A stretch of 64,000 nt of DNA, taken from assembly GCA_028279685.1 (NCBI GenBank), contig JANQNG010000038.1, positions 27,030 through 91,029 on the forward strand, given 5' to 3'. Made by a program: the position numbers and the translations under genes. Below are positions 37,533-63,925 of this stretch, one piece after another. The DNA is from Candidatus Nanoarchaeia archaeon. Lineage in GTDB: Archaea; Nanobdellota; Nanobdellia; Woesearchaeales; SKIA01. The number at the start of each line of letters is the position of its first letter. Position 1 is the first letter of the stretch. A model generated the notes under the pieces. It was not told the DNA's origin. It was given only the letters and a program-made list of their open reading frames with translations, and did not search any database.

Positions 37533-37650
37533 TGGGGACGCTGAGATTTGAACTCAGATCCAGTGGTTACCCCATGACGTAATCATTGACCGAAGTCTCA
37601 TCGCTCCAATGCTGGAGCCACTTATTCTAGCCAGGTTAAACTACGCCCCC
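37533..37650 (-). tRNA. tRNA-Trp(CCA) with ~44-nt intron at 37/38
   Basis: On minus strand: GGGGGCG...CGTCCCC acceptor, anticodon arm AGTGG-CTCCAG[intron 37568-37611]A-CCACT, T-arm CTGAG-TTCAAAT-CTCAG. Confidence 0.92.
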
Positions 37651-37710
37651 GCATAATATCAGAGTAGAAACTGCTTTTTTAAATCTTCTTATGCAATACT
37701 TTTATATATA

Positions 37711-37725
37711 GTGTCAATCATACAC
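37711..37725. promoter_or_regulatory. NrtR-type operator candidate
   Basis: GTGTCAATCATACAC inverted repeat just downstream of TTTATATATA. Confidence 0.6.
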
Positions 37726-37730
37726 ATAGA

Positions 37731-38414
37731 ATGGTTGATTTTTCTAAAGATGGAATGATGAAAGTTGCCGTAGATGCTGTCTGCTTTACTGCAAGAGGTA
37801 ATGAACTTCAAATTCTGTTAATCAAAAGAAAACATGAGCCGTTTACAGGAATGTGGGCTATCCCTGGAGGATTTGTCCATCCAAAAGAGGAACTTGAGAA
37901 AGCTGCTGAGCGTGAATTAAAAGAGGAAACGGGAGTGAAGAATGTTTTTCTGAAGCAATTAGGAACATATGGTGGTGTAGAGAGAGATCCTCGCGGACGT
38001 GTTTTGAGTATCACATATATTGCATTGATTCAAGGAGATCAAAAACTCAATCCTACGACTGATGCAATGGCTGCGGAATGGTTTTCTGTGCATGAGCTTC
38101 CTGAGCTAGCATTCGATCACAAAGATATTATTGCGGATGCATTGAAGCATTTACAGTATGAATTGCAGACAACAAATATTGCATATCAAATTCTTCCAAA
38201 TAAATTTACGTTGACAGAGGTGCAGAAGCTCTATGAGTTGGTGTTGGGGAAAGAATTAGATAAAAGGAATTTCAGGAAGAAAATGAAAGAGCTTGATTTA
38301 GTGAAGGCATTGAATGAAACTAAAATGGAAGGAGCTCATAGACCAGCACAGTTATTCGAATTCAAAGATAAAAAGTATAAGCCAGTTAGCGAGAAAGTGC
38401 AGGTGTTTCTTTAG
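37731..38414 (+). CDS. NrtR-like Nudix + winged-HTH transcriptional regulator
   Basis: Nudix box GGFVHPKEELEKAAERELKEETGV plus C-terminal wHTH LPNKFTLTEVQKLYELVLGKELDKRNFRKKMKEL...AHRPAQLFEF. Confidence 0.8.
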   Translation: MVDFSKDGMMKVAVDAVCFTARGNELQILLIKRKHEPFTGMWAIPGGFVHPKEELEKAAERELKEETGVKNVFLKQLGTYGGVERDPRGRVLSITYIALIQGDQKLNPTTDAMAAEWFSVHELPELAFDHKDIIADALKHLQYELQTTNIAYQILPNKFTLTEVQKLYELVLGKELDKRNFRKKMKELDLVKALNETKMEGAHRPAQLFEFKDKKYKPVSEKVQVFL

Positions 38415-40589: not shown

Positions 40590-40661
40590 TTCCATATAGA
40601 AAATATTTTCTAGGAGCGAAATATTTATATATCAGTTAGTGTATACAATACAATAAGTAAA
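40590..40661 (+). promoter_or_regulatory. Conserved NAD-cluster promoter/operator copy A
   Basis: Near-identical to 62019-62090; palindrome TAGAAAATATTTTCTA (40597-40612), TATA-like TATTTATATAT, AGTGTATACAATACAATAAGTAA. Confidence 0.85.
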
Positions 40662-40721
40662 TCACAAACAAACAAAGTTTTGTGATTGTAAGTGTAAAAA
40701 TTACAATAATGGTGATGTAAA

Positions 40722-41105
40722 ATGAATGAAGCTGATGTTGTAAAAGGCATACTTGCCTATCAAAAAAGAGCAGAACATGATGACAGAGTGGATGTTATTC
40801 CTTTGGAACATGAAGGTGTCTATGAAGCATATAGTGGAGACAAGGATGAATATGGCAGCAGAAATCATCTTGGATTTTTCAGAGGAAGATTTGTTGATGT
40901 GCTTGCACATGTGATCCAGCAACCAGGATTTGGTGGATGGTACACGGGTAAAAATCCTGATAATAGCAGTTCCGGATATGTCAATTTGCACAATCCTGAG
41001 ATAATGGATATTGCTCCAGTAGATTTCAGGCTTGAGAGTGCTCAAAGGATGATGACATTACAAGAAGAAACCGCTCAATTAGAGGAGCGATTAGGTTCAA
41101 GATAG
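40722..41105 (+). CDS. Hypothetical protein, first gene of the NAD operon
   Basis: 127-aa ORF downstream of promoter A. Confidence 0.6.
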   Translation: MNEADVVKGILAYQKRAEHDDRVDVIPLEHEGVYEAYSGDKDEYGSRNHLGFFRGRFVDVLAHVIQQPGFGGWYTGKNPDNSSSGYVNLHNPEIMDIAPVDFRLESAQRMMTLQEETAQLEERLGSR

Positions 41106-41127
41106 ATGAGAAAAAAGCAAAAGGTGA

Positions 41128-42312
41128 ATGTCTATGGGAAAAGAAAGACTCGATGAAAAAATATTGAAGGTTGATCCTCGTGTTGCGAATGGTTGGTATA
41201 CTGATGTTTATTTCAACAGGACTAAAGAAATATTGCAGAATGATGGACATCATCCAACTCTAAGAATGCAGTTCTTTCAAAAGAATAACGATGTTTGTGT
41301 TTGTGGAATTGACGAAGCAATTGGAATAATGAAAGAAGCACTAGGAGAAGACTATAAGAAATTAGAAGTTAAGACTTTGCATGATGGAGATGTTGTTGAT
41401 GAATTTGAAACGGTAATGACAATAGAAGGTGATTATTCATCGTTTTCACATCTTGAAACTGTGATGCTTGGTGCGTTGGCAAGAAGAACAAAAGTAGCAA
41501 CGAATGTTTATAGAACAGTAAGAGAAGCAAGTAAAGTAACTGATAAACCTGTTTTATTTTTTCCTGCAAGATTCGACATATATCAAGTACAAGCAGGAGA
41601 TGGTTATGCATATGATATTGCTATGAAATCACTAGGACGTGACCCGAAGAAAGGAGGCAATGGTGTTTCAACTAATGCACAAGGAGAATGGTGGGGAAGT
41701 TACGGTTTAGGAACAATTCCTCATGCGTTAATTGCTGCTTATGGAGGGGATACTGTAAAAGCTTCTTTGAAGTTTGCAAAGAATATAGATCCTAATGTTA
41801 AAAGAGTTGTTCTTGTCGACTATGAAAATGATTGTGTAAAAACTTCGTTGGAAGTTGCTGAAGCAATGTTGGAAGAGTATAAGGGTTCTGGCAAAGATAA
41901 GAGATACAAACTTGCAGGTGTTCGCTTAGACACTTCAGGATCGATGGTTGATAATTCAATTGTTGATCAAATGGGCCAATTCAAGCCAACAGGTGTAAAT
42001 GAACAATTAGTGATGAATGTTTACAATGCTTTGCAGGAAAAAGGAAAGGAATTTCCAGAAGATAGTGTTGAGAGAAAATTCTATCACGAAATTGGAATTG
42101 TAGTTTCCGGCGGATTCACACCTGAAAAAATTAAGAGATTTGAAGACAAAAGTTTGCCAATAATGGCTTATGGTGTAGGATCTTCAATGTTTTCTGGGAA
42201 TTATGATTTCACTGCAGATATTGTCAGCGAAAAGATAGATGGTGAATGGCAGCATCAAGCAAAAGTCGGCAGAGCATACAGGCCAAATGATCGATTGGAG
42301 GTTGTAGAATGA
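41128..42312 (+). CDS. pncB: Nicotinate phosphoribosyltransferase
   Basis: ALARRTKVATNVYRTV, FFPARFDIYQVQAGDGYAYDIA, GTIPHALIAAYGGDTVKA, VRLDTSG, VSGGF. Confidence 0.85.
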   Translation: MSMGKERLDEKILKVDPRVANGWYTDVYFNRTKEILQNDGHHPTLRMQFFQKNNDVCVCGIDEAIGIMKEALGEDYKKLEVKTLHDGDVVDEFETVMTIEGDYSSFSHLETVMLGALARRTKVATNVYRTVREASKVTDKPVLFFPARFDIYQVQAGDGYAYDIAMKSLGRDPKKGGNGVSTNAQGEWWGSYGLGTIPHALIAAYGGDTVKASLKFAKNIDPNVKRVVLVDYENDCVKTSLEVAEAMLEEYKGSGKDKRYKLAGVRLDTSGSMVDNSIVDQMGQFKPTGVNEQLVMNVYNALQEKGKEFPEDSVERKFYHEIGIVVSGGFTPEKIKRFEDKSLPIMAYGVGSSMFSGNYDFTADIVSEKIDGEWQHQAKVGRAYRPNDRLEVVE

Positions 42313-42761
42313 GTGATATTATTTCAGCAGCGATTCGATATGCTTCGCAAAATAGTGACAAATTAGTGAGAAAAGTAGGACAAAAAGATTATTTCAGAGT
42401 CACTAAGTATGGTGCTGAAAAAAAATCAAGTTATTTGGCCTATGGCGATCCTTTGGATGTCGTTGTGGATTTGATTGAGAAGGTAGTTTTTTTCGGAAAC
42501 TGGATTTCTATTCCAAGTCGGCATCGCGATGATATATTTGAAATCACGAGCAATATTTGGGGAGAAATAAAGTGTGTGAGAGAGACTGAAAATATTGCTG
42601 ATGTTGTTTATGTTGAAGAAAAACCATATTTGTCTGAATTAAGAACAAAAGAAGGATTTGCAAATGCTGCAAAATCAGTTTTTACAAGAGGATATCCTGC
42701 TGAAGAGTTAGCAGAAAAAATATTCAATGTAAAAGTTAGTGTAAAAAATAAAAAAAGGTGA
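42309..42761 (+). CDS. Hypothetical protein
   Basis: ATGA overlap with pncB. Confidence 0.6.
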   Translation: MSDIISAAIRYASQNSDKLVRKVGQKDYFRVTKYGAEKKSSYLAYGDPLDVVVDLIEKVVFFGNWISIPSRHRDDIFEITSNIWGEIKCVRETENIADVVYVEEKPYLSELRTKEGFANAAKSVFTRGYPAEELAEKIFNVKVSVKNKKR

Positions 42762-42765
42762 TAAA

Positions 42766-43635
42766 ATGAAAAAAACAATTATTATTTCGAATGTTATAGA
42801 CGGATCTGAGTCCTTTATGGGAGTTCATGGTTCTTTTCCCTGTGGATCAACACAAGAGGAAAAAGATAATACTGTAAGCATTATGCGTGCTTCTGATTTT
42901 ATATTATATTCTAATGATTTGCATCCAGATGATGCTAAAGAATTTAGTATTAATGGAGGCTTATATAATGCGCATGATCAAGTAAAACCCGAAAGATTTG
43001 ATTCTGATTATGTCATAGGATTTGATCTAGAAGGAAATGAAATACAACTCGGCAATAAAAGTGTTAGTCCGCGATTAGAAGAGACATTGCAACAAGCTGT
43101 TGAAGGAAGAACTGCAGGAATATATGTTCCTAGAGAAGTGTATTTTCAATCAGAACATGAAACGCCGTTCTGTACTCCGAAAGATATTGAAGAAACCTAT
43201 AAGGAGCGTATTATTACTTCTGAAGAATTTGTTGAAGGTTCATTTGATTATATTATAGCGCCAAAGAAATATTTTGATGCGACGAGAACAGATAGCGACA
43301 GATCTCTTCCAAAAGGGTCTTTCGAAGGTGTTCCTGATCAAAATATGAATATCTATTCATTGTTGGAGGAGAGGTTTCCTTCTGATGAATATGAATTAGT
43401 TTTTGTTAATACAGGAGTAGTTGAAGGTATTTGCAGATTGCACACTTCTATTGGACAAAAACAAATGTTTCCTGATGCGAAGATAATCAATATTTCTGAT
43501 GCTACAACGCCTCTTGCAGGGATTGGACTAGGTTATGAAACTGCAGAACAGTCTCGAGATGCTTGTGAAAGGGTGTGTAAAGATATTGGCATTGAGTATA
43601 TGAGTACAGAAGAGTTTTTGGAGGCATACAAATAA
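42766..43635 (+). CDS. Divergent nicotinamidase / isochorismatase-like hydrolase
   Basis: YSNDLHPDDAKEFSINGGLYNAHDQ resembles the metal-binding DxHP..F..GG..H motif; catalytic Cys region VFVNTGVVEGICRLHTSI. Confidence 0.65.
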   Translation: MKKTIIISNVIDGSESFMGVHGSFPCGSTQEEKDNTVSIMRASDFILYSNDLHPDDAKEFSINGGLYNAHDQVKPERFDSDYVIGFDLEGNEIQLGNKSVSPRLEETLQQAVEGRTAGIYVPREVYFQSEHETPFCTPKDIEETYKERIITSEEFVEGSFDYIIAPKKYFDATRTDSDRSLPKGSFEGVPDQNMNIYSLLEERFPSDEYELVFVNTGVVEGICRLHTSIGQKQMFPDAKIINISDATTPLAGIGLGYETAEQSRDACERVCKDIGIEYMSTEEFLEAYK

Positions 43636-44165
43636 TGAAAACTAAACTTAATCCATTGGAGCTTGGAGATCTCGATAACATCATGTCTTGGGTTAATGAT
43701 GAAGAAGTTATTGGAAGATTTAATGGTTTTAATGACAACATAACTAGAGAACAAGAACAGAATTATTTGGAAAAGATGATTGCTTCCGAAACTGATAAAT
43801 TGTACTCTATCTCGACGGAAGATGGAGTATATTTGGGACAAGCAGGAGTTCATGAAATAGAAGCAAATAATGATGGAAGGCTTGCATTGATTATAGGCAA
43901 TAAAGAATACTGGAATAAGGGATGTGGTCAAAGTGCAATGGAAGGATTGCTTGACAAAGCATTCAATGAACTAAAGCTAGAAAGAACTTGGCTTGTTGTT
44001 CTTGAACAAAATAAGAAAGCCAGACATATATATGAGAAAATTGGCTTTCAACAAGAAGAGATTCTGAAAGATTACTATCAATTGGGTGATCAAAAACTCA
44101 ATATGATCAAGATGAGTTTGCATAGAGAAGAATATGCGCGAGGTGAACCTACGTGGAACGAATAA
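43635..44165 (+). CDS. GNAT family N-acetyltransferase (RimJ/RimL type)
   Basis: LALIIGNKEYWNKGCGQSAMEGLLDKAFNELKLERTWLVVLEQNKKARHIYEKIGFQ. Confidence 0.85.
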   Translation: MKTKLNPLELGDLDNIMSWVNDEEVIGRFNGFNDNITREQEQNYLEKMIASETDKLYSISTEDGVYLGQAGVHEIEANNDGRLALIIGNKEYWNKGCGQSAMEGLLDKAFNELKLERTWLVVLEQNKKARHIYEKIGFQQEEILKDYYQLGDQKLNMIKMSLHREEYARGEPTWNE

Positions 44166-45052
44166 AACTACCATATATGAATCCTGAAAAAGTAAGTCGA
44201 GAAATAGGAGACTTTGTTGTGGATACAGCGAAGAAAGTCGGTTCAACAGGATGTGTTATTGGATTATCGGGAGGAGTTGACTCGACGACAACTGCAGCAT
44301 TGATCAAGAAAGCATTTGATGCTTACAATGCAGAGCACGATGATAAGCTAGAACTTGTCGGTTATATCTTGCCATCAAGCACTAATAACCCAAAAGATGC
44401 CGAAGATGGTGTTTCAGTAGCAAAAAGATTGGGCATACGATATGAGACGCAAAGCATTGAACCTATTGTTGAAGCATACAAAATAACTAATTCTGAAGCG
44501 GTTGAAAGTTTATTCCACAAAGGAAACTTGATGTCAAGGATAAGAGCGAATTATCTTTCTACAAAAGCAGCAACTGAACAAAAAACACTTTCTGGCACAG
44601 GCAACAAAGACGAAGACTTTGGCATAGGATACTACACGTTATTTGGTGATGGTGCCGTGCATATGAGTCCTATAGGCAATCTCTCGAAGAGACTTGTCAG
44701 ACAGATGGCGACTTATTTAGGATTTGAAGACTTGGCAAACAGAACACCAACAGCAGGATTACAGCCTGATCAAACAGACTTTAGTGATCTTGGCTATGAT
44801 TACGATGTTGTTGAATTAGTTACAGAAGGATTCCATCAAGGATTTACTGCAGATGAACTTGATGTGCATCCTCAGGTGAAACCTTTGATTGAACAACAGA
44901 TAGATCAATACAAAGAAATGTTTGGCAAGAAGAAATTCAACAATGTCGGTGAAGTGATTGACGATATTTATCATAGACATTACAATATAGCGATGGCAAA
45001 AGTGGAGATCATTCATCCGCCTACTGCAGAAGTAACAATAGAATACAGGTGA
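44153..45052 (+). CDS. nadE: NAD+ synthetase (ammonia-dependent type)
   Basis: PP-loop CVIGLSGGVDSTTTAALI, GTGNKDE, GYYTLFGDGAVHMSPIGNLSKRLVRQMA. Confidence 0.95.
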   Translation: MERIKLPYMNPEKVSREIGDFVVDTAKKVGSTGCVIGLSGGVDSTTTAALIKKAFDAYNAEHDDKLELVGYILPSSTNNPKDAEDGVSVAKRLGIRYETQSIEPIVEAYKITNSEAVESLFHKGNLMSRIRANYLSTKAATEQKTLSGTGNKDEDFGIGYYTLFGDGAVHMSPIGNLSKRLVRQMATYLGFEDLANRTPTAGLQPDQTDFSDLGYDYDVVELVTEGFHQGFTADELDVHPQVKPLIEQQIDQYKEMFGKKKFNNVGEVIDDIYHRHYNIAMAKVEIIHPPTAEVTIEYR

Positions 45053-45058
45053 ACGTAC

Positions 45059-45565
45059 ATGCCAGCAGCTAATCAGATTCAAGAACAGAGAAACCCAATA
45101 CCAACCACAGATATTATTATCGAATATTGTGGAGAAGAAAGACCTATTTACGTTGCTGGCGGAATAGTTCCTCCTGAATCAAAGATAAACGGAAGTATTG
45201 TACTCGTTAAAAGGAAAAACCCTCCACATGGATGGGCATTACCAGGAGGATTTCATGACTTTGGTCTTTCAGCAGAAGAGAACGCTATTAAAGAAGCAAA
45301 AGAAGAAACAAATCTTGATGTGATTCTTGAATCTCCTGAAAAACCGTTTCTTTTCAAATCAAAACCTGATCGTGATCCAAGAGATCATATGATCTCTGCA
45401 GTGTATATCGGTAAAGGCTATGGTGTTCCTCGAGGAGGAGATGATGCAAAAGAAGCAAAACTATACACTATAGATGAGGTGAAACAACTCATAAGAAATA
45501 ATGAGCTTGCGTTTGATCACGCAGAGATACTAGAAGCATATTTCAGGCATAGGGGGTACAACTGA
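45059..45565 (+). CDS. Nudix hydrolase
   Basis: GGFHDFGLSAEENAIKEAKEETNLDV Nudix box. Confidence 0.85.
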   Translation: MPAANQIQEQRNPIPTTDIIIEYCGEERPIYVAGGIVPPESKINGSIVLVKRKNPPHGWALPGGFHDFGLSAEENAIKEAKEETNLDVILESPEKPFLFKSKPDRDPRDHMISAVYIGKGYGVPRGGDDAKEAKLYTIDEVKQLIRNNELAFDHAEILEAYFRHRGYN

Positions 45566-46182
45566 TGAGTTTAGGAAGAGCAGGATTCATAGGACGATTT
45601 AAACCTTTGCATGTAGGAGGAGCAAGAGTGCTTGAGGAAATATGTAAAAATACGGATCATTTGATAATAGGTGTTGGTAGCAGCAACAAATATGATCTTC
45701 GCAACCCTTTTACAGCAGAAGAATCTCAGAAGATGATTGATGTATTTCTTTCTCCAAAATTTTCAAATTATTCATTTATTCATATTCCTGATTTTGGGCA
45801 TATTCCTCAATTTCAAGATGGGCAGAAATGGAAAGAATATGTGAAGAGTAAATTCAAGGACCTAGATTATTTTGTAGCAGGAAATAGTTATGTGAAATCA
45901 TTGTTAGCTCAAGATTACAAAGTCATTGATGCTCATACGTTACTTCATGATGATCAGAAGATTCGCTTGAGTGCTACGCAAGTAAGAATTGCCATGGCAA
46001 GAGGCCGAGATTGGCGGAACTTAGTTCCTGAATCTACGGCACAATATATTGCAGAACATAAACTTGATGATCGTTTCCGACGAGAATTTGGATTAGCAAC
46101 AATAGCTTTAGCAGCAGGATATGATTTAGCTACTGCTGATTCTTTTGATGCTGAAAAAAAGTACGTAATGTCTGGAAAATGA
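45565..46182 (+). CDS. NMN adenylyltransferase (NadM-like), variant HxGH motif
   Basis: GRFKPLHVGG and RLSATQVRIAMARGRDWRNLVPESTAQYI. Confidence 0.8.
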   Translation: MSLGRAGFIGRFKPLHVGGARVLEEICKNTDHLIIGVGSSNKYDLRNPFTAEESQKMIDVFLSPKFSNYSFIHIPDFGHIPQFQDGQKWKEYVKSKFKDLDYFVAGNSYVKSLLAQDYKVIDAHTLLHDDQKIRLSATQVRIAMARGRDWRNLVPESTAQYIAEHKLDDRFRREFGLATIALAAGYDLATADSFDAEKKYVMSGK

Positions 46183-46209
46183 AAAAAAGAACCATGGAGG
46201 TGGTAAAAA

Positions 46210-47193
46210 ATGTATAGTTGGGGACCTAATACAAGTGATTGGCATGGTAGAACAAATTATAATTATAGTTCTGAGAATGCACCCTATTTGGACGAACTTG
46301 CAGCAGAATCTAGTTCACGGGGTGAAAGAACCTATTCAAGGAGAACTTCACCAGATGTCATTGTAAAAACAAAAGATAAAACGATAAAAACAGAAAGTGA
46401 AAATCCTATTGTGGTAGGTATTGATGTGACAGGGAGTATGTCAAGATGGCCTGCGGAGATTTTTGATCGTCTTCCTTTGATGTATCAAACATTATCGCAA
46501 TATAGGCAAGATGTTGAAATTAGTTTTGGCGCTATTGGTGATGCATATTCTGATCGATATCCTTTACAAGCAAATGATTTTGGTCATGGGATAGTGCTTG
46601 AAGATCATGTGAATGCTTTATGTCCTGAAGGTGGTGGAGGTGGACAAGTCAGTGAGACATATGAATTATTTGCATACTTTATGCTTGAAAAGTGTAAGAT
46701 GTCTAATGCACAATCTCCATTTATGTTCATTTTTGGAGATGAGAAATTCTATAATGAAGTGAATCCTGCACAAGTAGAACATTATATTGGAGACAACCTC
46801 GAAAATCCAATGGCTTCAGGGAAAGTCTGGCAGAAATTGATAGAGAAATTCAATTTGTATTTCTTGCAGAAACCTTATGGAAGTGGACATGATAGACGCA
46901 TGACTGCTGAGATCAAACAACATTGGGCAAATGCGATTGGAGAACAACGAATTGTTGATCTGCCAAATGCTGAACGTGCTGTTGATATTGCAATAGGAAT
47001 TGTAGCGAGACATTGGGGACAGTATGGTGATTTCAGGGAAAATCTCAGTGCAAGACAAAGCGATGAAGTAGTTAGGAATCAAGTCCATGACGCAGTTCGT
47101 GATGTTCGAGAAGATGTTGCTGAAAGCGTTGATGCTGTTGCTTCTGCTTCAGAAAAACCAATTTCTCTACATGAAAAATACGGGGAGAGATAA
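46210..47193 (+). CDS. von Willebrand factor A-like protein
   Basis: MIDAS-like PIVVGIDVTGSMSRWP; FMFIFGDE. Confidence 0.65.
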   Translation: MYSWGPNTSDWHGRTNYNYSSENAPYLDELAAESSSRGERTYSRRTSPDVIVKTKDKTIKTESENPIVVGIDVTGSMSRWPAEIFDRLPLMYQTLSQYRQDVEISFGAIGDAYSDRYPLQANDFGHGIVLEDHVNALCPEGGGGGQVSETYELFAYFMLEKCKMSNAQSPFMFIFGDEKFYNEVNPAQVEHYIGDNLENPMASGKVWQKLIEKFNLYFLQKPYGSGHDRRMTAEIKQHWANAIGEQRIVDLPNAERAVDIAIGIVARHWGQYGDFRENLSARQSDEVVRNQVHDAVRDVREDVAESVDAVASASEKPISLHEKYGER

Positions 47194-48104
47194 TGACGAT
47201 AAGCGCAATTGTGACCGTACCTCCGTACAGTCCTTTTATTGAGGAAGTGGCAAGACATCCCATAGTGAGTGGGCTTCGCTTAAACACAGTGATGCCTACG
47301 AAAGGGTCTTTAGAGGATGTGATCAAACATTTACAAGATGTTGCTGGAAGCAAAGATATCTGGATTGATCTTAAGTGCAGACAATTGCGTGTTGCAGACT
47401 ATGGAGTTCCTCCATTTACAGAGATTACACTGACTCATCATATTACTGTTGATACTCCTGTCAAAGCATATTTCTCTGACGGTAAAGAGATTGCTACTGT
47501 TCTTGCTATTGACGGAAAAAGGCTTATTATGCAGGAGGGTCCAAAGCGTGTCATAGGTCCTGGTGAGTCAGTAAATATTTTACATCCTTCACTACAGATT
47601 GAAGGGTATTTTACCGATACTGACAAACAGTATATTGATGCTTGTGTCAATTGTGGTCATCATCAGTATATGCTTTCTTTTGTTGAACAGCAGCAAGATA
47701 TTGATCAATTAAGAACATATGATCTTGATGCAGAAATTGTTGCAAAAATTGAATCAAAAAAAGGTTTGGTGTATACTAAACATAAAAATAATGATGTTCG
47801 ATTGATGGCTGCAAGAGGAGATCTCTTTATCGAAGCAGGTATGCCTCACAAAATCATTCGTGCAATGGAAGATATCTATTATGCTGATGCTTCTGCTATT
47901 GCTGCTTCCAGATTATTCAGTTCATTATCAAGAAGTCTAGAACCTTCTTGTGCAGATATTGGAGATGTTGATAATCTATTGCGCATGGGCTATAAAACAG
48001 TAATGTTTGGTGATGAGATATGTATGCAAAGAGATTCTATTATATCAGGGTTGAATCTGTTTCAGGCAATAGCTGAGCCTTATCAAGGAGGGAGAAGATG
48101 GTGA
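47193..48104 (+). CDS. Short pyruvate-kinase-like protein
   Basis: LRLNTVMPTKG, IWIDLKCRQLRV, EIVAKIESKKGLVY, LMAARGDLFIEAG align with PK motifs. Confidence 0.65.
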   Translation: MTISAIVTVPPYSPFIEEVARHPIVSGLRLNTVMPTKGSLEDVIKHLQDVAGSKDIWIDLKCRQLRVADYGVPPFTEITLTHHITVDTPVKAYFSDGKEIATVLAIDGKRLIMQEGPKRVIGPGESVNILHPSLQIEGYFTDTDKQYIDACVNCGHHQYMLSFVEQQQDIDQLRTYDLDAEIVAKIESKKGLVYTKHKNNDVRLMAARGDLFIEAGMPHKIIRAMEDIYYADASAIAASRLFSSLSRSLEPSCADIGDVDNLLRMGYKTVMFGDEICMQRDSIISGLNLFQAIAEPYQGGRRW

Positions 48105-49084
48105 ATAAATCGTCGCTAGAACTTGAGCAAACATTGAACAAGTGCAATATTCAAGATTCCACAGAACATCTGCTTGAGAAAATTGAAACAATTAACAGAC
48201 TTAAACAGGAAAAGAATGCAGTCATCTTAGCGCATTATTATATGAGAGACAGCATAAAAATAGGAATAGCAGATTATGTGGGTGATTCTCTTGACTTAAG
48301 CAAATCTGCAATGAGGACTGAAGCAGATCTTATAGTGTTCTGTGGTGTTGATTTCATGGCAGAGACTGCAAAGATTCTCAATCCTCATAAAAAAGTCATT
48401 CTACCGAGCAGAGAAGCAGGTTGTTCATTAGCAGAAAGTATAACGGCAGAAGATGTGAAAAAACTGAGAAAAGATTATCCTGATGCTGCAATCGCAACAT
48501 ACATCAACACAACTGCGGATGTTAAAGCAGAATGTGATGTTTGCGTAACATCTGCTAACGCCCCTAAAGTTATCTCGAGACTTCCCAACAAAAGAGTAGT
48601 ATTCATTCCGGATAATTATATGGCAAGAAATCTGGAGAACGAGATTGATAAGGAAATTATCTTCTGGGATGGAACTTGTGTTGTTCATGAACAGTTCAAT
48701 CAGCATTACTTTAGGGAATTCAGAAGCAAAGTTCCTGGTTTGAAAGTTTTGGCGCATTATGAATGTGACCCTTCTACTATTGAAGCTGCTGATATGCATG
48801 GAAGTACGAGTGACATGAGGAGGTATGTTGGAGAGACAGATGCAGATGCGTATCTTCTTGCTACAGAATGTGGTTTAGCATCCACTATTATTGAAGATCA
48901 TCCTGAGAAGAAAATCATAGGACCTTGTATGATCTGTCCTTATATGAAGGAGATCACGATTGATAACACCCTTCATGCATTGACTGATGAAAAACCAGAA
49001 ATCACTATTTCTGCATATACTATAGATAGGGCTAGAATCTCGTTGGAAAGGATGTTCGCTTTAGGTGATTCGAATGAAAGATAG
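48098..49084 (+). CDS. nadA: Quinolinate synthase
   Basis: VILAHYYM...GDSLDLSKSA, FCGVDFMAETAKIL, SREAGCSLAESI, YINTTADVKAECDVCVTSANA, ECGL, GPCMICPYMKEIT. Confidence 0.95.
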   Translation: MVNKSSLELEQTLNKCNIQDSTEHLLEKIETINRLKQEKNAVILAHYYMRDSIKIGIADYVGDSLDLSKSAMRTEADLIVFCGVDFMAETAKILNPHKKVILPSREAGCSLAESITAEDVKKLRKDYPDAAIATYINTTADVKAECDVCVTSANAPKVISRLPNKRVVFIPDNYMARNLENEIDKEIIFWDGTCVVHEQFNQHYFREFRSKVPGLKVLAHYECDPSTIEAADMHGSTSDMRRYVGETDADAYLLATECGLASTIIEDHPEKKIIGPCMICPYMKEITIDNTLHALTDEKPEITISAYTIDRARISLERMFALGDSNER

Positions 49085-51674: not shown

Positions 51675-53513
51675 ATGGATTTAGACCTAAAAATATTGCA
51701 TGCATTAGAAGACAAAGAGGAAAGAGTTGATGAAACAGAGACGCTTCAGATAACAAGAGGAGCATTTACGAAAGATCATATCTTTGCGAAACTTGTCTCG
51801 AGGATTGCTGGAGGAGGAATGGAGTGTTATGCCTATTTGATTAAACCAAACGAAGCAATGGACGATATTGTTAGAGATATTCTTATTGCGCCTGACCAAG
51901 ACACCACTAGTTCACATGTTTGGGTAACGCCAGAAGGAGTCAAACAAGCAGGAGAAAATATTGCTGCGAGAAACTATGAACTCTTAGGATGGACTCATTC
52001 ACATGGTACTATGAGCACGTTTCACTCAAGCTGGGACATTGATAATTTCCGAACTATCCTACATGAGATCAGTCCACAAACAATGTTCAAGAAAGAGAAC
52101 GCATTATACAGATTAGATGAAGATAAGCTTTTTGTTGATAATTATCGTATCGAAGGAATCAAACCTTTGCAACGGAAAATTGATATTATCAAGAAAGTAG
52201 AGCGAAGGCCGTTTGCTTATAGTATTGTGGTTAATGATCATAATGAGTATTATGCAGAAGTCTGGACGAAGACCTTTGATCATGCAACAGGAAGATTTAA
52301 ACTTGACAATGCAAAGAATCCAAAGCTTGAGATTGTTGATGTCGATGATGATGTAGAGATTGATATTGCAGAAATCGAAGATGAGATCTATCAGAAAGTG
52401 CGCATTAATAGAAGAGATTTCACGAATGATCATAGAAGATATGAATCAAAGCAAGCTAAGGCAATTGCAAATAGATTCATCCATCACGCAGCACAATACC
52501 TTGCAAAAAATGGCGAGTATAAAAAATTAATAGTCACTATGCTCACAGAGGATGCTGAGGCATCGCGTTATCAGATGATAAAAACTGCAGAGAAATCTGC
52601 TGATGAGACCATTGAGGTCCCTGAGCAAAATAAAGAGGAGATTGTTGAAAATCTAGAAGGCAATCTTGAGAGGAGCGAATTCAGCAGATATCTTGATGCA
52701 AGTAAGAAGTTCAGGAGATTTGAGCTTGAGAATCTTATCTATCTCCGTACAATGGTCGATTTCTCTAATGCAGAGAAGAATGTTGCTGCAGAGGAACTTG
52801 TTGCAAAACAAGACGAAATTATTCATGGATATCAAGAAAAGGCCAAGATGCTGGAAGAATGTGCAGACATTGCAGCGAATGCAACGAGAGCTCTCTCAAG
52901 GTATGCTATGGAGGAGTTCACTGATTATAATAATAAGAAAGAACACAAATACAAGCGATTTATCAGCAGCATCATTGGCTACTTAGCTACTGAAAGAAAT
53001 TACAGTTTCGGAAAAGCATTGGAGAATAAGAAAAGGTTTAAGGTGAAGACTAAGAAGAGGCTCTATCTCAGAGAAGAGCGCATCAATATGTTCAATCAGC
53101 TAACAAGAGATCTCTACTATGATTGCATGAGAAACCCTGAAATGTATGAAACACAAAAAACATTTTTTACCGCATTTGCTAATGCTTACCTCAACAATAC
53201 TGGGCAGGTTGATGGATTGATTGAACAGCATTTGCTTGGAGATGTTGAGAGCGGGGAAAAGTATCAAGATGTGGCCTTTGTTCATCCGACTTATAACCTT
53301 TCTTCTGCTTCGGAATTGTATCAACAAAAGATTGTGGAAAGACCAAAGAAAGAAAAAGTGCCTAAGGAGATGCATACAGAGAAGAGCACGAAATCAACTG
53401 AGGAAAAGATTATCAAGGCAAATGAATATACGCCAATAGGAAAAGTGCAACCTTCTCGACGAGGAGGGATAGATCAATTTCTTCCTGCCTGGGCTAGGAG
53501 GTTGTTAGGATGA
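51675..53513 (+). CDS. JAMM/JAB (MPN+) metalloprotease with long C-terminal extension
   Basis: Exact HxH-x7-S-x2-D: HSHGTMSTFHSSWD; upstream ECYAYLIKP supplies the Glu. Confidence 0.85.
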   Translation: MDLDLKILHALEDKEERVDETETLQITRGAFTKDHIFAKLVSRIAGGGMECYAYLIKPNEAMDDIVRDILIAPDQDTTSSHVWVTPEGVKQAGENIAARNYELLGWTHSHGTMSTFHSSWDIDNFRTILHEISPQTMFKKENALYRLDEDKLFVDNYRIEGIKPLQRKIDIIKKVERRPFAYSIVVNDHNEYYAEVWTKTFDHATGRFKLDNAKNPKLEIVDVDDDVEIDIAEIEDEIYQKVRINRRDFTNDHRRYESKQAKAIANRFIHHAAQYLAKNGEYKKLIVTMLTEDAEASRYQMIKTAEKSADETIEVPEQNKEEIVENLEGNLERSEFSRYLDASKKFRRFELENLIYLRTMVDFSNAEKNVAAEELVAKQDEIIHGYQEKAKMLEECADIAANATRALSRYAMEEFTDYNNKKEHKYKRFISSIIGYLATERNYSFGKALENKKRFKVKTKKRLYLREERINMFNQLTRDLYYDCMRNPEMYETQKTFFTAFANAYLNNTGQVDGLIEQHLLGDVESGEKYQDVAFVHPTYNLSSASELYQQKIVERPKKEKVPKEMHTEKSTKSTEEKIIKANEYTPIGKVQPSRRGGIDQFLPAWARRLLG

Positions 53514-55012
53514 GTGAGGATCTCGAGCATCTTATGAACAGGTATAATAGGCAGGAACTTATTGCAGGTTGGGATCAGTCTAAATTAGAAAATGCTTCTA
53601 TAGCAATTATAGGCACAGATATTCTTGCGAACTTTTCAGCTATTACACTTGCAGCATTAGGATTTGGAGATATTGAGATCTATGGGCCTGGCTTTGTTAC
53701 AAGGAGTATGTTGACAAATTACGGAAAGAATAGAAACAATCCTGATTACAGTGAAGGATTCCTTTATTTTGATGCACATGCAGGAGATCCAAAAGCAGAA
53801 GTAATAGCATCATTTATCAAAAAACTTAACCCTCTCGTGGATGCATTCGGTGTCAATATAGATCTTTGCAGAGCAGAGAATAGGAATGTAATAGGCAAAC
53901 CAGATATTATTCTTGAAACAACAAATGATCCTGCCTCAAAAATTGTTGCAATAGAGTATGCAGCTCAACATAATATTCCTTTAGTGAGTATGTCCTCATC
54001 ATCAATGTATGCTGGTGTTGGGTTTTTTGATCCTAGATCAAACAGAGAAGATATGATGAAATTAATTGAGAATATTGTTTTTGCTGAGTTGAAGGGAATG
54101 CCACAAGGAACTACTACAAGTCAAGTGATTGCAGGAGTGGGTGTTGATGAGGTGAGAAAGAAGATTATGCCTTTAAGAAATGAACGTATTATAGAGGATA
54201 TTGTCGTTTATAATATGGATGCTGAGACGCGTTTTGAAAGAAACGGAACAAATCTTCCTCATAAGGCAGCTGATTTTAAAGAAAAAACAGTAGCAATGAT
54301 AGGAGCTGGTGCATTAGGAAACTTTGCAGGATTAGATCTTGTGCTCAATAACGTAGGACATCTTTATGTGGTTGATTTTGATGAGATCGAATCAACTAAC
54401 CTTAACAGACAAATATGGTTCTATGATGCTGTTGGTAGAAATAAGGCAGAAGCGCTTATAGAAAAATTAAGAAAAATTAATCCTCGCGTTGAGTTTAGTT
54501 ATGCAAAAGAAAGAATCATTCCTGATTCCAAGAATTTTTTCAAGAAGACAGATATAGATCTCATGATTGATACGGTAGATAATAACAAAACAAGAGCATT
54601 ACTTAATTATTTTTCCTTACGATATAAAATTCCGTTTATCAGCGGAGGTACTCGGCATAATAGCGGTCAAGCAACAATTGCTATTCCAGGAAAGACAGGA
54701 TGCCTCAATTGTCAGGCAGATATTGACAAGCTTGCACTTGACGGCTATCAACCGCACAGTTGTATTTATGCTCCAGAACCTTCAGTGATTACTTCAAATC
54801 AAATTGCTGCAGGATTTATTGGAGGAGAAGCAAGAACAGTATTGCAGCCTGATATATTTGGAGAACCAATTCACCATATTTTGAAATATGTTTCTGACGA
54901 AACATACAGGTTGGGTGTGCTTCCTTCAAATGGAGCATGTAATTGTCATAAAAATAGAGTGGAGCTCATGCACTGGACGGGAAAAATGAAACATCTTTAT
55001 GAGGGTGATTGA
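53510..55012 (+). CDS. Tandem ThiF/MoeB (E1-like) protein, degenerate N-domain + intact C-domain
   Basis: N: RYNRQELIAGWDQSKLENASIAIIGTDILAN; C: VAMIGAGALGN, VDFDEIESTNLNRQ, GRNKAEA, DTVDNNKTR, CLNC...HSCIYAPEPSV...CNCH. Confidence 0.88.
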   Translation: MSEDLEHLMNRYNRQELIAGWDQSKLENASIAIIGTDILANFSAITLAALGFGDIEIYGPGFVTRSMLTNYGKNRNNPDYSEGFLYFDAHAGDPKAEVIASFIKKLNPLVDAFGVNIDLCRAENRNVIGKPDIILETTNDPASKIVAIEYAAQHNIPLVSMSSSSMYAGVGFFDPRSNREDMMKLIENIVFAELKGMPQGTTTSQVIAGVGVDEVRKKIMPLRNERIIEDIVVYNMDAETRFERNGTNLPHKAADFKEKTVAMIGAGALGNFAGLDLVLNNVGHLYVVDFDEIESTNLNRQIWFYDAVGRNKAEALIEKLRKINPRVEFSYAKERIIPDSKNFFKKTDIDLMIDTVDNNKTRALLNYFSLRYKIPFISGGTRHNSGQATIAIPGKTGCLNCQADIDKLALDGYQPHSCIYAPEPSVITSNQIAAGFIGGEARTVLQPDIFGEPIHHILKYVSDETYRLGVLPSNGACNCHKNRVELMHWTGKMKHLYEGD

Positions 55013-55844
55013 CATGGGAGAAATGGATGCGATCATTGCAGGCATACGATCTTCATATGAAAAAACTAATATGACTGACGTTGATCTCGAGAGTATTCTT
55101 CATGAGCGTCCTGAAGTAAAAGTAGGATATCTGCTGCAGCATATGGATCCTGAATCAGAAAAACCGTATGCAATTAATTTCGATCCTGTAGAGACTTTAT
55201 TCCTCGACAAACTTGTTTCGGAAGAAGTGCTTAATGGTGAAATTGTTATGGATAAGAATGATTTCTTTAGAGGAATAGTGTTTCTTGATTATTTGACAAC
55301 AGTGGTGCTTGATGACTATGCTATTCTTAAAGATATGCATAATATCGCAGTTGAATTGGAAAATATACAAGAAGATCTTGATCCTGATCTTGAATTAGTA
55401 GTAAAATATTCAGGTATGTTTTATCTTTCCTATACAGGAAGAAGAATCATGAGGAATCAGATGGATGAAAAAGGATTGGAACGTTATCAAGTAAAAAATA
55501 AGCATTACGAGCCAGAATATGCTATTCTCAGAAAGATAGCACCTGTGTATGAAGCATTAGGCAAGATGGTTTGTGATCTTCCTAAGCATGATATAATTAA
55601 AGAGAAGCTTCCAGACATGCTCTATCTCTATGATATTAAAGCAGCTATCTTTGTTGATGCAATACTTGATTTTATTGAAGATGATGCATTAAAAGAGAAA
55701 GTTGTGACTAAATTCAGAGAAGGAGATTACTACAAGGCTTCAATGGTTGCCATCACAGGCATTAGCAAACAAGTTTCTAACACAACAATTGATGAATACA
55801 TAACGTCGCTTGTCGAGAACGGAGGAAATAATGATGGATCTTGA
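54999..55844 (+). CDS. Hypothetical protein of the Ubl-like operon
   Basis: 281-aa ORF overlapping E1 gene. Confidence 0.6.
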   Translation: MRVIDMGEMDAIIAGIRSSYEKTNMTDVDLESILHERPEVKVGYLLQHMDPESEKPYAINFDPVETLFLDKLVSEEVLNGEIVMDKNDFFRGIVFLDYLTTVVLDDYAILKDMHNIAVELENIQEDLDPDLELVVKYSGMFYLSYTGRRIMRNQMDEKGLERYQVKNKHYEPEYAILRKIAPVYEALGKMVCDLPKHDIIKEKLPDMLYLYDIKAAIFVDAILDFIEDDALKEKVVTKFREGDYYKASMVAITGISKQVSNTTIDEYITSLVENGGNNDGS

Positions 55845-57309
55845 AGAACTCTTGCATAATGGAGAGTATTGTGATCTTCTCTTAACAGAGGCGCGCACGT
55901 ATGGTGAAGAAGGGAGTCTTGAATCATTAAGAAAAGCATATGATAGTTTACAGGAGAAATTAACAATATCAGAGGATCAGCAATACTATCTCAAGGAAGT
56001 TGTAGGTTCTGCACATCTGCTGATGTTGGATCTTGAAGGAGCAGCAGAATATTTTGAAGGGAATCGGCTGAAAATGGAGAGGCTCAAAGGTGTTGCATTA
56101 TGGCTTGGTAATGATGCTCGACTAATCAAAAGAATTGCTCCTGAAAAGTATTCTGATTTCATCCGTGATATGGCTTTACCTAATGTCTGGATGGGAAGAG
56201 ATGAAAAAGGATTTTATCTTGATGAAGAGGAGCTTGATAGTATACTTAAAGATCTTCAGGAACAAGAAGTTGATACACAGCAAGCTCTTAAAGAAACGGT
56301 GCTTTCAATGGAGAGAAATGGACGAAAGAATATTCCTAAAAAACTGTTGCTTGCTTATTATGCAAACGATAAAGAGCTTTATTCTAAGGTATTTGCAGAA
56401 TATGAGCAAAAAAAGAACAGCAACAGAAAAAATATCGATAGCATAGTGCAGAACTATTGTGCATTGCATGATCTGCGGTTTATTAAAAAAATGCAGGAAG
56501 GAGATTATGATCCTTTTTTTCCAATAGCAAGCAATATGTATTTGGTTGAAAGAAATGGTGAAAAAGAAGTTTTCAAAGAGCATCTTAGATTATACACTGA
56601 TTTTTCAAGACACGATGGCTATAATAAAGAAAAAGAGATATATGAACAGTTCTCCGATGATAATATCATTGATTATCTAGGACATTGCAATGTTGATGGT
56701 ATTGAATTCTTGCGATTTAAAGTATTTGATGGCCTTGATCTCTCTGAATTCACAAAAGAGGAAATGCTTTTACCTTTTGATGAGACGCTCCGAATTATAA
56801 GAACGCATGCAGATGTGCTCGATTCTTTGCAGCAACAAGGTATTTTGTATCTTGATGTGAAAGATAAAAATGTAATGTACGATGGAAATGAAATGAAATT
56901 GCTTGATTTTGGCATGGCGCAGACATTCGACAAAGTTGATGCTTCCACTTTCGCTCGATCAGTGCTTTCTACTCCAGCATATATTCCTCCTGAATGGGGA
57001 TCTGTGTTCGTTGCTACAAGGACATCAGAGGTTTTTCAATTAGGCGTATTATTTCATCAAATGCTTACAGGAAAACATCCATTTGCCCATGTTGATTTTA
57101 CTGAAGGTGATGAGTACAGAGAATCGGAAATCATCAAGTTTGGATTATCGAACATATATAATGATTACAAAGCTCCGGAACAGCTTGCTTCACATCCTGA
57201 AATGGTATCGTTGCTTGAGCAGATGTTACATAAGGATCCTACGGAGCGTCCAACAGTAAAAGAGGTAACAGAAAGGATTGGAGATTATCTCCTTCAGCAG
57301 GTGATATGA
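55831..57309 (+). CDS. Eukaryotic-type Ser/Thr protein kinase with N-terminal helical region
   Basis: LYLDVKDKNVMY (HRDxKxxN-like), LLDFGMA, TPAYIPPEWG, EVFQLGVLFHQMLTGKHPF, DPTERPT. Confidence 0.85.
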   Translation: MMDLEELLHNGEYCDLLLTEARTYGEEGSLESLRKAYDSLQEKLTISEDQQYYLKEVVGSAHLLMLDLEGAAEYFEGNRLKMERLKGVALWLGNDARLIKRIAPEKYSDFIRDMALPNVWMGRDEKGFYLDEEELDSILKDLQEQEVDTQQALKETVLSMERNGRKNIPKKLLLAYYANDKELYSKVFAEYEQKKNSNRKNIDSIVQNYCALHDLRFIKKMQEGDYDPFFPIASNMYLVERNGEKEVFKEHLRLYTDFSRHDGYNKEKEIYEQFSDDNIIDYLGHCNVDGIEFLRFKVFDGLDLSEFTKEEMLLPFDETLRIIRTHADVLDSLQQQGILYLDVKDKNVMYDGNEMKLLDFGMAQTFDKVDASTFARSVLSTPAYIPPEWGSVFVATRTSEVFQLGVLFHQMLTGKHPFAHVDFTEGDEYRESEIIKFGLSNIYNDYKAPEQLASHPEMVSLLEQMLHKDPTERPTVKEVTERIGDYLLQQVI

Positions 57310-58481: not shown

Positions 58482-59086
58482 TGTATAAGGCATTATATTT
58501 AGGAAGGTTCCAGGTTATGCATAATGGACATTTGTATATTGCTAAACATATTGATCAGACAGAAGATATAGAATCAATTGTGTTTGGTATTGGAAGTATG
58601 CAATATAATAGAAATAATAAACATCCTTTTCTTCCTAAAGTATTAAATCCATTTACATTTGAGGAACGTAAGGAAATGCTTGAAATAACTCTTAAAGAAG
58701 AGATCAAGAAACCATATGAACTTATTGGCATCAGGGATTTTCATGATTGTCCGAAATGGGCTGCACATATTGCTGACTTGACCGATGCGGAGATTGTCTA
58801 TACCACTTCACCGTCAGAGATTAAAGAGTTTGTTAAATTAGGGTTCGGGATACGTCCTACGCCTGTGAAAGATGAATTCCATGCACAGATTGTTAGAGAG
58901 ATGATTGCTAATGATAATGGTTGGAGAAAGTATATGCCTGAAGGAACAAGAAAATGGATAGAAGCTAATAATATGGATAAGGTAATTGCAGACTTTTACA
59001 AAGTACATTCTGATGAAATAGAAGAAGTGCATAAAATGCAAATTGAGAGGGGAGAAGCGCGATATGACCCAAACAAAAAATACTAA
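58478..59086 (+). CDS. NMN adenylyltransferase (NadM-like)
   Basis: ALYLGRFQVMHNGHLYIAKHI canonical GRFxxxHxGH; VFGIGSMQYNRNNKHPF. Confidence 0.8.
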   Translation: MMYKALYLGRFQVMHNGHLYIAKHIDQTEDIESIVFGIGSMQYNRNNKHPFLPKVLNPFTFEERKEMLEITLKEEIKKPYELIGIRDFHDCPKWAAHIADLTDAEIVYTTSPSEIKEFVKLGFGIRPTPVKDEFHAQIVREMIANDNGWRKYMPEGTRKWIEANNMDKVIADFYKVHSDEIEEVHKMQIERGEARYDPNKKY

Positions 59087-62018: not shown

Positions 62019-62090
62019 TTTCCATATAGAAAATATTTTCTGAGAGCGAAATATTTATATAGTTGTTAGTGTATACAATACAATAAGTAA
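62019..62090 (+). promoter_or_regulatory. Conserved NAD-cluster promoter/operator copy B
   Basis: Near-identical to 40590-40661; AGAAAATATTTTCT palindrome, TATTTATATA, AGTGTATACAATACAATAAGTAA. Confidence 0.85.
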
Positions 62091-62091
62091 A

Positions 62092-62937
62092 ATGGATTCA
62101 GAAAAGAAGACAATAAAGAATGTTATCATTGATACGGATATTGGCAGTGATGTAGATGATGCAATCGCATTAGTATATGCGATCAAGGCAGGAATGGATA
62201 TTAAATTAATCACAACAGTGCATGGTGTTGTTGAGCAGAGAGCGAAGATAGCAAAGAAGATTACATTAATGCTTGGCAAAAATATTCCTGTTGCCTATGG
62301 AGAAGCGAAGCCATTAAAACAGAAGACAATATATAACACAGGTTTTGAAGGAAAGGAGTTCGTTGATAATGGTAATTTTGATATAATGAACAATGCTGTT
62401 GATTTTTTTGCAGAGACTGTTTATGCGCATAAACACGATATTACTGTTGCTGCAATAGGGGCGTTAACTAATGTGGCAAAAGCTTTTAAGAAATATCCTG
62501 ATCTTCCTCAATATATCAATCATCTTTATATTATGGGTGGTGCAAAAATAAAAGGAGAGAGAGTAAAGCCTGATTATACCTCTCATAATTTTAAAGTCGA
62601 CCCCGAAGCAGCTGATATTGTACTTGCTGCTGATATGCCTATCACTATTGTTACAAAACAAGTTTCTAAGAAGAATTATTTCACCAGGGAACAGTTCAAT
62701 ACGCTTTCGAAAAATGGAGATCCTGTTATGCAATATCTTCGTCATGCTGCAAAACAGTGGCTTGATTTTTCTGGAAAAAAAGTAGCTTATCTTTATGATC
62801 CTTTGACGCTATTTCATGTTATTGACGAGGGCATTACAACAAAAGAAAAGATTGGTAATTTCAGCATAACTACTGATGTCGATAAAATATTTAAACAAAG
62901 ACTTATTTCCGTCTTGGAGAGTGGCCACAGTGACTAA
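62092..62937 (+). CDS. Inosine-uridine-type nucleoside hydrolase
   Basis: VIIDTDIGSDVDDAIALVYAI, AIGALTNVAKAF, IMGGAKIKGE; C-terminal DPLTLFHVID. Confidence 0.9.
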   Translation: MDSEKKTIKNVIIDTDIGSDVDDAIALVYAIKAGMDIKLITTVHGVVEQRAKIAKKITLMLGKNIPVAYGEAKPLKQKTIYNTGFEGKEFVDNGNFDIMNNAVDFFAETVYAHKHDITVAAIGALTNVAKAFKKYPDLPQYINHLYIMGGAKIKGERVKPDYTSHNFKVDPEAADIVLAADMPITIVTKQVSKKNYFTREQFNTLSKNGDPVMQYLRHAAKQWLDFSGKKVAYLYDPLTLFHVIDEGITTKEKIGNFSITTDVDKIFKQRLISVLESGHSD

Positions 62938-63925
62938 GTTCGAAAAAGTATTAATTATCTCAAAAAAAACTGAATTAGAATTCTATGAAGATAAATTCGG
63001 TGCGAATGTTGACGCTTTCATGCAAAGAAATAACATTGATGTCGCATCGCTTGAAGAAAATCATACTTATCATTATGACAGCCTCAATAATATCAAGTCA
63101 TTATTCAAGCAGAACGGCATTAAGCCAGGAATCATTAGAAAACAAAGTATTGGCCGCAGGGACTTTGATGAGCAATGGGATCTTGTTGTCTCTGTTGGGG
63201 GGGATGGCACCTTTATGGATGTTGCACGATATATCATGGATGATACGCTTCTCTTCGGTATCAAATCAAGCCCTCGTTCTATTGGAGGTCATTATAATAC
63301 AAACTTCTCTAATGCAGAAGAGCACATTAAACGTCTGCTCACTGGAGATTATTTTGTTGAGAAGAGAGCAAGAGTTGAAGGGATCATTGAGAACGGTCAT
63401 GTCATCAAAGATTTAGCAGTTAACGAAATAGCGATTGGCGACAAATACATGACAGGGTATTCAAAATTGGAAGTTTATCTTAATGATGAAAAGTTCCCGA
63501 ATGGCTCTTCAGGATTAATTGCCTCGACATATTGTGGTAAGACAGGATGGTATGATAAGGTTCCTTTACTTGAAAGAGATCCTGCTGTGATTAAGAAAGC
63601 ACAAGATTGTTTAGCAGAAATAGGAATGGGCGACAGAATAATCAATCATCCTGCAGCAGAATTCAATCCAAGAGAAGAAAATGTTGTTCGCTATAAAACT
63701 ATGATGGGAGGGGATAACGGTCAGAATTATGGTTATGATTATGGCATTATCCGTCCAGGCGATGAAATAAAAGTAGTTTCTAAAATACTTATGGATGGTT
63801 GGGCAGCATTTGATGGTGATAAACCTACAAAGCCAAGACCTCGATGTTATGATCTTTTTTTTGGCTCTGTTGTTAGCATAAGAGCCTCAGATAAACCATT
63901 GCATGTTGTGGCATTTGATGAATAA
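62930..63925 (+). CDS. NAD kinase family protein (divergent)
   Basis: VVSVGGDGTFMDVARY, AVNEIAIGD; probable GTG start near 62930. Confidence 0.75.
   Translation: MTKFEKVLIISKKTELEFYEDKFGANVDAFMQRNNIDVASLEENHTYHYDSLNNIKSLFKQNGIKPGIIRKQSIGRRDFDEQWDLVVSVGGDGTFMDVARYIMDDTLLFGIKSSPRSIGGHYNTNFSNAEEHIKRLLTGDYFVEKRARVEGIIENGHVIKDLAVNEIAIGDKYMTGYSKLEVYLNDEKFPNGSSGLIASTYCGKTGWYDKVPLLERDPAVIKKAQDCLAEIGMGDRIINHPAAEFNPREENVVRYKTMMGGDNGQNYGYDYGIIRPGDEIKVVSKILMDGWAAFDGDKPTKPRPRCYDLFFGSVVSIRASDKPLHVVAFDE

Follow-up and report, generated by a model that had tools for sequence, protein, structure and literature searches.

NrtR regulators control bacterial NAD genes through palindromes with a GT-N7-AC core, which form the general operator consensus of this family. 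The described relatives include SoNrtR of Shewanella oneidensis (PDB 3gz5/3gz6/3gz8), an ADP-ribose-responsive NAD repressor, and AraR of Bacteroides thetaiotaomicron (BtAraR; PDB 5bs6, 5dd4, 5deq), which has L-arabinose as its effector, arabinose targets and a nucleotide pocket filled by side chains. In the crystal structure of AraR with DNA, Lys179, Arg180, Asn181 and Lys184 of the recognition helix together with Lys204/Arg205 of the wing define the GTGT half-site, with Arg180 being intercalated in the DNA (PMC4666351). The Nudix box is impaired in the studied NrtR and AraR proteins (PMC4666351, PMC6800001), and NrtR of M. smegmatis showed no hydrolase activity (PMC6800001). A study of Sulfolobus Nudix proteins called NrtR bacterial and found an HTH in none of its proteins (PMC10311068), and our literature search found neither an archaeal NrtR regulon nor any paper joining Woesearchaeota and NrtR.

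We here analyzed a stretch of 64,000 nucleotides from a Candidatus Nanoarchaeia archaeon (the window), in which an earlier note had proposed an archaeal NrtR-type NAD regulon with autoregulation. Our results make it very probable that the protein concerned is an NrtR-family repressor that, in an archaeon of the Woesearchaeota order, controls NAD synthesis and salvage genes as well as its own gene, nrtR, via AGTGT-N7-ACACT, and that would be relieved by ADP-ribose or a similar ligand. This assignment builds on features read from sequence, namely the domain make-up, the conserved operator, which tends to occur together with the regulator, the NAD targets and the conserved DNA-reading residues. 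If true, and going by the literature found, this would be the first report of an NrtR-type NAD regulon from Archaea, with relevance for the control of NAD synthesis and salvage in small archaea.

The regulator gene and its probable targets

The features of the window that are considered in this study were the following, all found on the plus strand (+).

37700..37709 (+), TATA-like box TTTTATATAT of the predicted nrtR promoter, assigned from sequence, with the box-operator layout repeated at ortholog nrtR genes
37710..37726 (+), candidate autoregulatory operator AGTGTCAATCATACACA, agreeing with AGTGT-N7-ACACT at 9/10 positions and abutting the start codon
37731-38414 (+), nrtR ORF, 227 aa, ATG start; product with Nudix domain at residues ~11-135, complete Nudix box at 47-69, winged helix at ~150-211 and recognition helix DKRNFRK at D177-K183
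40616..40631 (+), BRE-like GCGAAA and TATA box TTTATATA of the predicted NAD operon promoter, assigned from sequence, of a spacing class common to the targets of relatives
40638..40654 (+), candidate operator 1 of the NAD operon, AGTGTATACAATACAAT
40691..40707 (+), candidate operator 2 of the NAD operon, AGTGTAAAAATTACAAT, 53 bp past operator 1 and followed 15 bp later by the first ATG
40722..49084 (+), probable target operon, which may extend further downstream: a small ORF first, then nicotinate phosphoribosyltransferase-like (41128-42312), NadE (44153-45052), a Nudix protein (45059-45565), NMN adenylyltransferase (45565-46182) and NadA (48098-49084)
62054..62061 (+), TATA box TTTATATA of the second target promoter
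62068..62084 (+), candidate operator AGTGTATACAATACAAT of the second target promoter, in the same duplicated block as 40638
62092..63925 (+), probable second targets: a PF01156 nucleoside hydrolase gene (62092-62937, +) and a gene for a NAD kinase-like protein (62876-63925, +)

Additional genes were seen in this neighbourhood. Pyruvate-kinase-barrel-like proteins (PF00224) are encoded at 47193 and 59064 in the NAD operon region (46210-48104 and 59043-60107), together with a protein lacking an assignment at 46210, and the pair 46210/47193 recurs at 57-60% identity beside NadE, NMNAT and nrtR in another locus (L048). At 51675-57309, in the same gene run, a JAMM-type motif is carried by a JAB-like protein (51675; below the Pfam cut-off), two ThiF/E1-like matches were found in one product (53510), and a protein kinase is encoded at 55810, which suggests a ubiquitin-like or modification module next to the NAD genes. 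Between nrtR and the gene upstream of it, Rfam gave a tRNA match of 118 nt on the minus strand (37533-37650), having room for an intron, for which ARAGORN in its bacterial setting made no call.

Relation of the protein to SoNrtR and AraR

The 227-aa product displays the domain make-up of the NrtR family, with an N-terminal Nudix domain (PF00293, 86.9 bits) and a C-terminal NrtR winged helix (PF21906, NrtR_WHD; 88.6 bits at a cut-off of 27), in agreement with its earlier description as a Nudix and wHTH protein. The NCBIfam model NF050029 (NtrR equivalog) matched residues 12-217 with 161.5 bits, below its curated cut-off of 400, which by this measure places the protein outside that narrow equivalog. 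Among solved structures, an ortholog profile matched BtAraR (E=9e-63) and SoNrtR (E=5e-46) best, AraR being the closest solved structure by sequence (163 bits) and also by fold, and an AlphaFold model of the protein (mean pLDDT 88, pTM 0.85) had AraR and DNA-bound SoNrtR among its top Foldseek matches at TM scores of about 0.80 (0.81 for SoNrtR). NadQ of Agrobacterium tumefaciens (PDB 7q91-7q94) is a NAD regulator with a related winged helix and the same general build, but it shows 17-20% identity (Foldseek), matches by sequence in the C-terminal region only and is ATP/NAD-responsive according to its PDB titles. One family of the order has a longer nrtR ORF of about 400 aa, in which an additional Nudix-like region is fused to the N-terminus (L041:11485-12720; also L166, L176 and L177).

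With SoNrtR, the window protein has in common the Nudix and winged-helix domains, the fold, NAD targets, the two arginines Arg41 and Arg98, and an operator of the GT-N7-AC type of the general NrtR consensus. It differs, however, in that two catalytic Glu, E62 and E66 in the complete box of the window protein, are Lys in SoNrtR, whose recognition helix reads IQGKSFRR instead of DKRNFRK, and in being archaeal with TATA-adjacent operators. The base-reading helix DKRNFRK and the GTGT half-site are instead identical to those of AraR, with all four helix residues retained as K178, R179, N180 and K183, while in the wing R204 corresponds to AraR Arg205 and His203 stands in place of Lys204. Many bacterial relatives sharing this helix have the operator ahead of their genes as well, with examples found in Cyanobacteria, Gammaproteobacteria, Armatimonadota, Chlorobi/Ignavibacteria and Bacteroidota. 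Bacterial NrtR-like proteins having about 44-54% identity to the window protein (from Chloroflexota, Melainabacteria, Cyanobacteria, Gammaproteobacteria, Planctomycetota and others) also have NadA or NAPRT nearby in several cases and a TTAGTGT-N7-ACACTAA-type site upstream of nrtR in many, with the difference that their promoters are bacterial.

In the ligand pocket, Arg41 and Arg98 of SoNrtR, making contacts with the phosphates of ADP-ribose, correspond to R33 and R88, whereas Asn43 and Lys76 are replaced by H35 and E66, leaving the pocket partly conserved. The Nudix box GFVHPKEELEKAAERELKEETGV, to which E66 belongs, is complete, and the impaired signature that is usual in studied NrtR members, albeit not strictly defining, is thereby absent from the window protein. 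The box is kept in 32 of the 36 archaeal orthologs compared below (in 26 the strict motif holds, and six have Gly changed to Asn near its end) and is intact in most of the close bacterial relatives. With the two arginines kept and the box complete, but Asn43 and Lys76 changed, ADP-ribose is a likely candidate for the effector of the protein and may also be a substrate. The complete site raises the question of catalysis inside a regulator, which we consider the most interesting point of this system.

That BtAraR is the closest solved structure, with an identical recognition helix and GTGT half-site, could also be taken to mean that the window protein is an AraR/XylR-like pentose regulator and not a NAD regulator. 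The ADP-ribose-binding Arg98 of SoNrtR is, however, Gly in AraR and kept as R88 here, with Arg41 also kept as R33. NAD genes are, moreover, present at nearly all orthologous loci (see below), and the sites are located ahead of NAD genes, with the identified targets being such genes instead of an arabinose operon. We hence regard a pentose regulator as very unlikely.

Candidate operators in the window

The earlier note had placed an operator right after the TATA-like box of the nrtR promoter, and GTGTCAATCATACAC was indeed found at 37711-37725, directly 3' of TTTTATATAT and 5 bp upstream of the nrtR ATG. This gives the promoter layout TTTTATATAT-AGTGTCAATCATACACA-TAGA-ATG, in which a GTGT-N7-ACAC palindrome has the TATA box on one side and the start codon on the other. 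The GT-N7-AC core that had been recognized also held, but the pattern AGTGT-N5-(A)ATACA given for it was mis-registered, with the near pattern AGTGT-N6-ATACA (at most two mismatches) occurring at chance level in the window (66 found vs 65.5 expected). In the corrected register the sites read AGTGT-N7-ACA(C/A)(T/A), centred on the core; the shared element is AGTGT-N7-ACACT, extended at target promoters to TTAGTGT-N7-ACACTAA. The window sites are those at 37710 (nrtR), 40638 and 40691 (NAD operon) and 62068 (nucleoside hydrolase and NAD kinase-like protein), the one at 40691 having been absent from the earlier list.

Regarding the two NAD promoters that had been said to carry the site, AGTGTATACAATACA is present without mismatch at both 40638 and 62068. 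These are not independent, however, since the promoters at 40.6 kb and 62.0 kb are near-identical across about 65 bp, upstream palindrome included, and this duplicated block, with two copies only genome-wide, must be counted as one piece of evidence and not two. The 19-bp form TTAGTGTATACAATACAAT has no further exact copy in the 1.9-Mb genome. Upstream of BRE/TATA in both duplicated promoters is a perfect palindrome, AGAAAATATTTTCT, at ~40599-40612 and ~62029-62042, which is possibly a second operator. We considered and rejected that the NAD promoter might hold a riboswitch or another known RNA, as Rfam gave none there (its sole match across 34-64 kb was the tRNA) and a hairpin between operators 1 and 2 folded no better than shuffles (z=-0.23).

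Scanning the window's genome with a GTGT-N7-ACAC-type pattern, as suggested in the earlier note, showed no enrichment of the bare palindrome (20 strand-hits at 10 places vs 13 in the control), and the same was true for the 17-mer with one mismatch (44 vs 56) and for a loose TATA-plus-palindrome pattern in one genome (17 vs 28 in the reversed control). None of ten other near-matches inspected in the window's genome (e.g. C7:14434) had a TATA box in the target-type position with a start codon after it. Since the bare palindrome was not enriched in one genome, single-genome statistics were replaced by comparative ones.

Comparison of orthologous loci and whole genomes

The neighbourhoods of 36 nrtR orthologs from one archaeal order were used as comparison set. 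Scanning spacers of 0 to 20, we found 105 sites agreeing at 9/10 positions or better at spacer 7 vs 2-10 at other spacers, with 35 perfect sites vs 0-2, while a reversed-sequence control gave 6 sites and 0 perfect ones. The operator was present at nrtR's own promoter in 28/36 orthologs, the other eight having no 9/10 site there, and NAD genes were found within the fetched neighbourhood of 33/36 loci. The lack of linked NAD genes and of the motif among orthologs had been named beforehand as grounds for giving up the proposal; these counts, together with the genome-wide co-occurrence described below, instead support an autoregulated archaeal NAD regulon of the NrtR type. Among NAD genes, 26/110 had a site close to their start, vs 18/396 among other ORFs (p=1.6e-8), in a count where many of the NAD genes are operon-internal and some of the 18 others head NAD operons. 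Among the targets identified were nicotinate phosphoribosyltransferase, nicotinamidase-like isochorismatase, NAMPT-like, NadE, NadA, NAD kinase and an ADP-ribosylglycohydrolase. Hence, two further traits of the NrtR family, a GT-N7-AC-cored palindrome at own and target promoters and linkage to NAD metabolism genes, were both found in this set.

It should be considered whether the palindrome could serve another, co-inherited regulator, with the Nudix-wHTH protein being chiefly an ADP-ribose pyrophosphatase having an accessory winged helix. The catalytic box, complete in the window protein and in most orthologs unlike in the studied NrtR and AraR proteins (PMC4666351, PMC6800001), would agree with such a role, but it is also compatible with DNA binding. 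The recognition helix, moreover, matches AraR at the residues reading GTGT, the nrtR promoter itself has the site in the majority of loci, and an unsystematic look noticed no other co-occurring gene. Taken together, this renders another regulator improbable.

As the 36 neighbourhoods had been picked for nrtR, a second, whole-genome test was made, using TTAGTGT-N7-ACACTAA with at most one mismatch in 353 genomes of the order. The extended operator was found in 41/52 genomes with nrtR vs 27/301 without it (Fisher p=2e-25); 11/52 lacked it, with three (G118, G201, G232) matching only at the level of the divergent paralog. Kinship was allowed for by comparing genomes with and without nrtR within the same genus, as read from tables, whereupon the members with nrtR were higher in all of the 13 genera having both kinds and a difference, with 4 genera tying and 0 showing the opposite. 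These 52 and 301 genomes also provide a comparative test set that is ready for use.

The palindrome always lies at a fixed TATA distance, as would be expected of an initiator or TATA-proximal element common to Woesearchaeal promoters and independent of NrtR. Such an element should, however, hardly follow nrtR both between genomes and inside single genera or prefer NAD genes, as this palindrome does, and it is also found upstream of nrtR in bacteria, whose promoters differ. We find this explanation extremely improbable and retain that of an NrtR operator.

Promoter architecture and proposed mechanism

Two classes of promoter were seen, in which the TATA box starts either 6-11 bp before a weaker site, AtTAnTGTAnttatTACACTAtn (mostly nrtR promoters; 25.5 bits over 23 bp, 4/27 perfect), or 12-14 bp before a stronger site, gTtAGTGTATActATACACTAAG (mostly target promoters; 31.1 bits, 23/38 perfect), with the bit values usable for comparison only, as site selection was conditioned on the core. 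Among site pairs less than 300 bp apart, 14/27 were spaced by 49-55 bp, about five helical turns, with the window pair at 53 bp. The usual archaeal TATA-to-start distance places the initiation region under the operator, which fits steric repression, and the nrtR mRNA would be nearly leaderless.

We propose that an NrtR dimer binds the AGTGT-N7-ACACT palindromes just 3' of the TATA box, at nrtR with a site beginning ~6-11 bp after the TATA start and abutting the start codon, and at NAD promoters with one beginning 12-14 bp after it, usually in the form TTAGTGT-N7-ACACTAA and often with a second site ~53 bp downstream. Bound NrtR would block entry of the transcription machinery, thereby repressing the NAD synthesis and salvage genes and nrtR, until a NAD-derived ligand (most likely ADP-ribose) in the Nudix pocket shifts the winged helices and takes NrtR off the DNA. 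This would resemble the apo-repressor mechanism of AraR, where the effector rotates the winged helices. Dimer binding, repression as opposed to activation, the identity of the effector and any cooperativity of tandem sites are what we infer from these arrangements.

Distribution and origin

The distribution of nrtR is patchy, with 52/353 genomes of the order carrying the gene and 51/371 sampled genomes of the phylum having PF21906. A quick tree, built from 117 proteins, placed the window protein within an all-archaeal group of 27 (SH-aLRT 99) and other archaeal sequences among bacterial ones (Chloroflexota, candidate phyla, Melainabacteria), with four archaeal-label changes. From this tree, exchange of nrtR between archaea and bacteria appears likely, and archaeal nrtR may have a single origin. 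That protein and palindrome occur together in dozens of archaeal relatives, and also in bacteria, suggests a regulatory circuit common to both domains, in which repressor and operator would be recognizably kept across bacterial and archaeal transcription machineries.

A more far-reaching reading would combine an active, self-resetting NrtR that hydrolyses ADP-ribose with a subfamily and operator shared between Bacteria and Woesearchaeota via gene transfer. ADP-ribose would then be bound as substrate, the protein would leave the operator, and hydrolysis would reset the system, making a single polypeptide the sensor of NAD turnover as well as its switch and timer, with one conserved operator refitted onto archaeal TATA promoters. 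We regard this combination as conceivable though rather doubtful.

A second, divergent archaeal Nudix-wHTH group with a degenerate Nudix box was also observed (L036:7403-8011 = G000:C7:39417-40019; L049, L050, L220-L224, L226). Its operator, TTACGT-N7-ACGTAA, gave 26 sites at spacer 7 vs 2-10 at other spacers, and these are often paired at a distance of ~48-56 bp. In the window's genome, the gene of this group lies in opposite orientation to an operon encoding a phosphoribosyltransferase (PF00156, APRT-like) and a Nudix protein.
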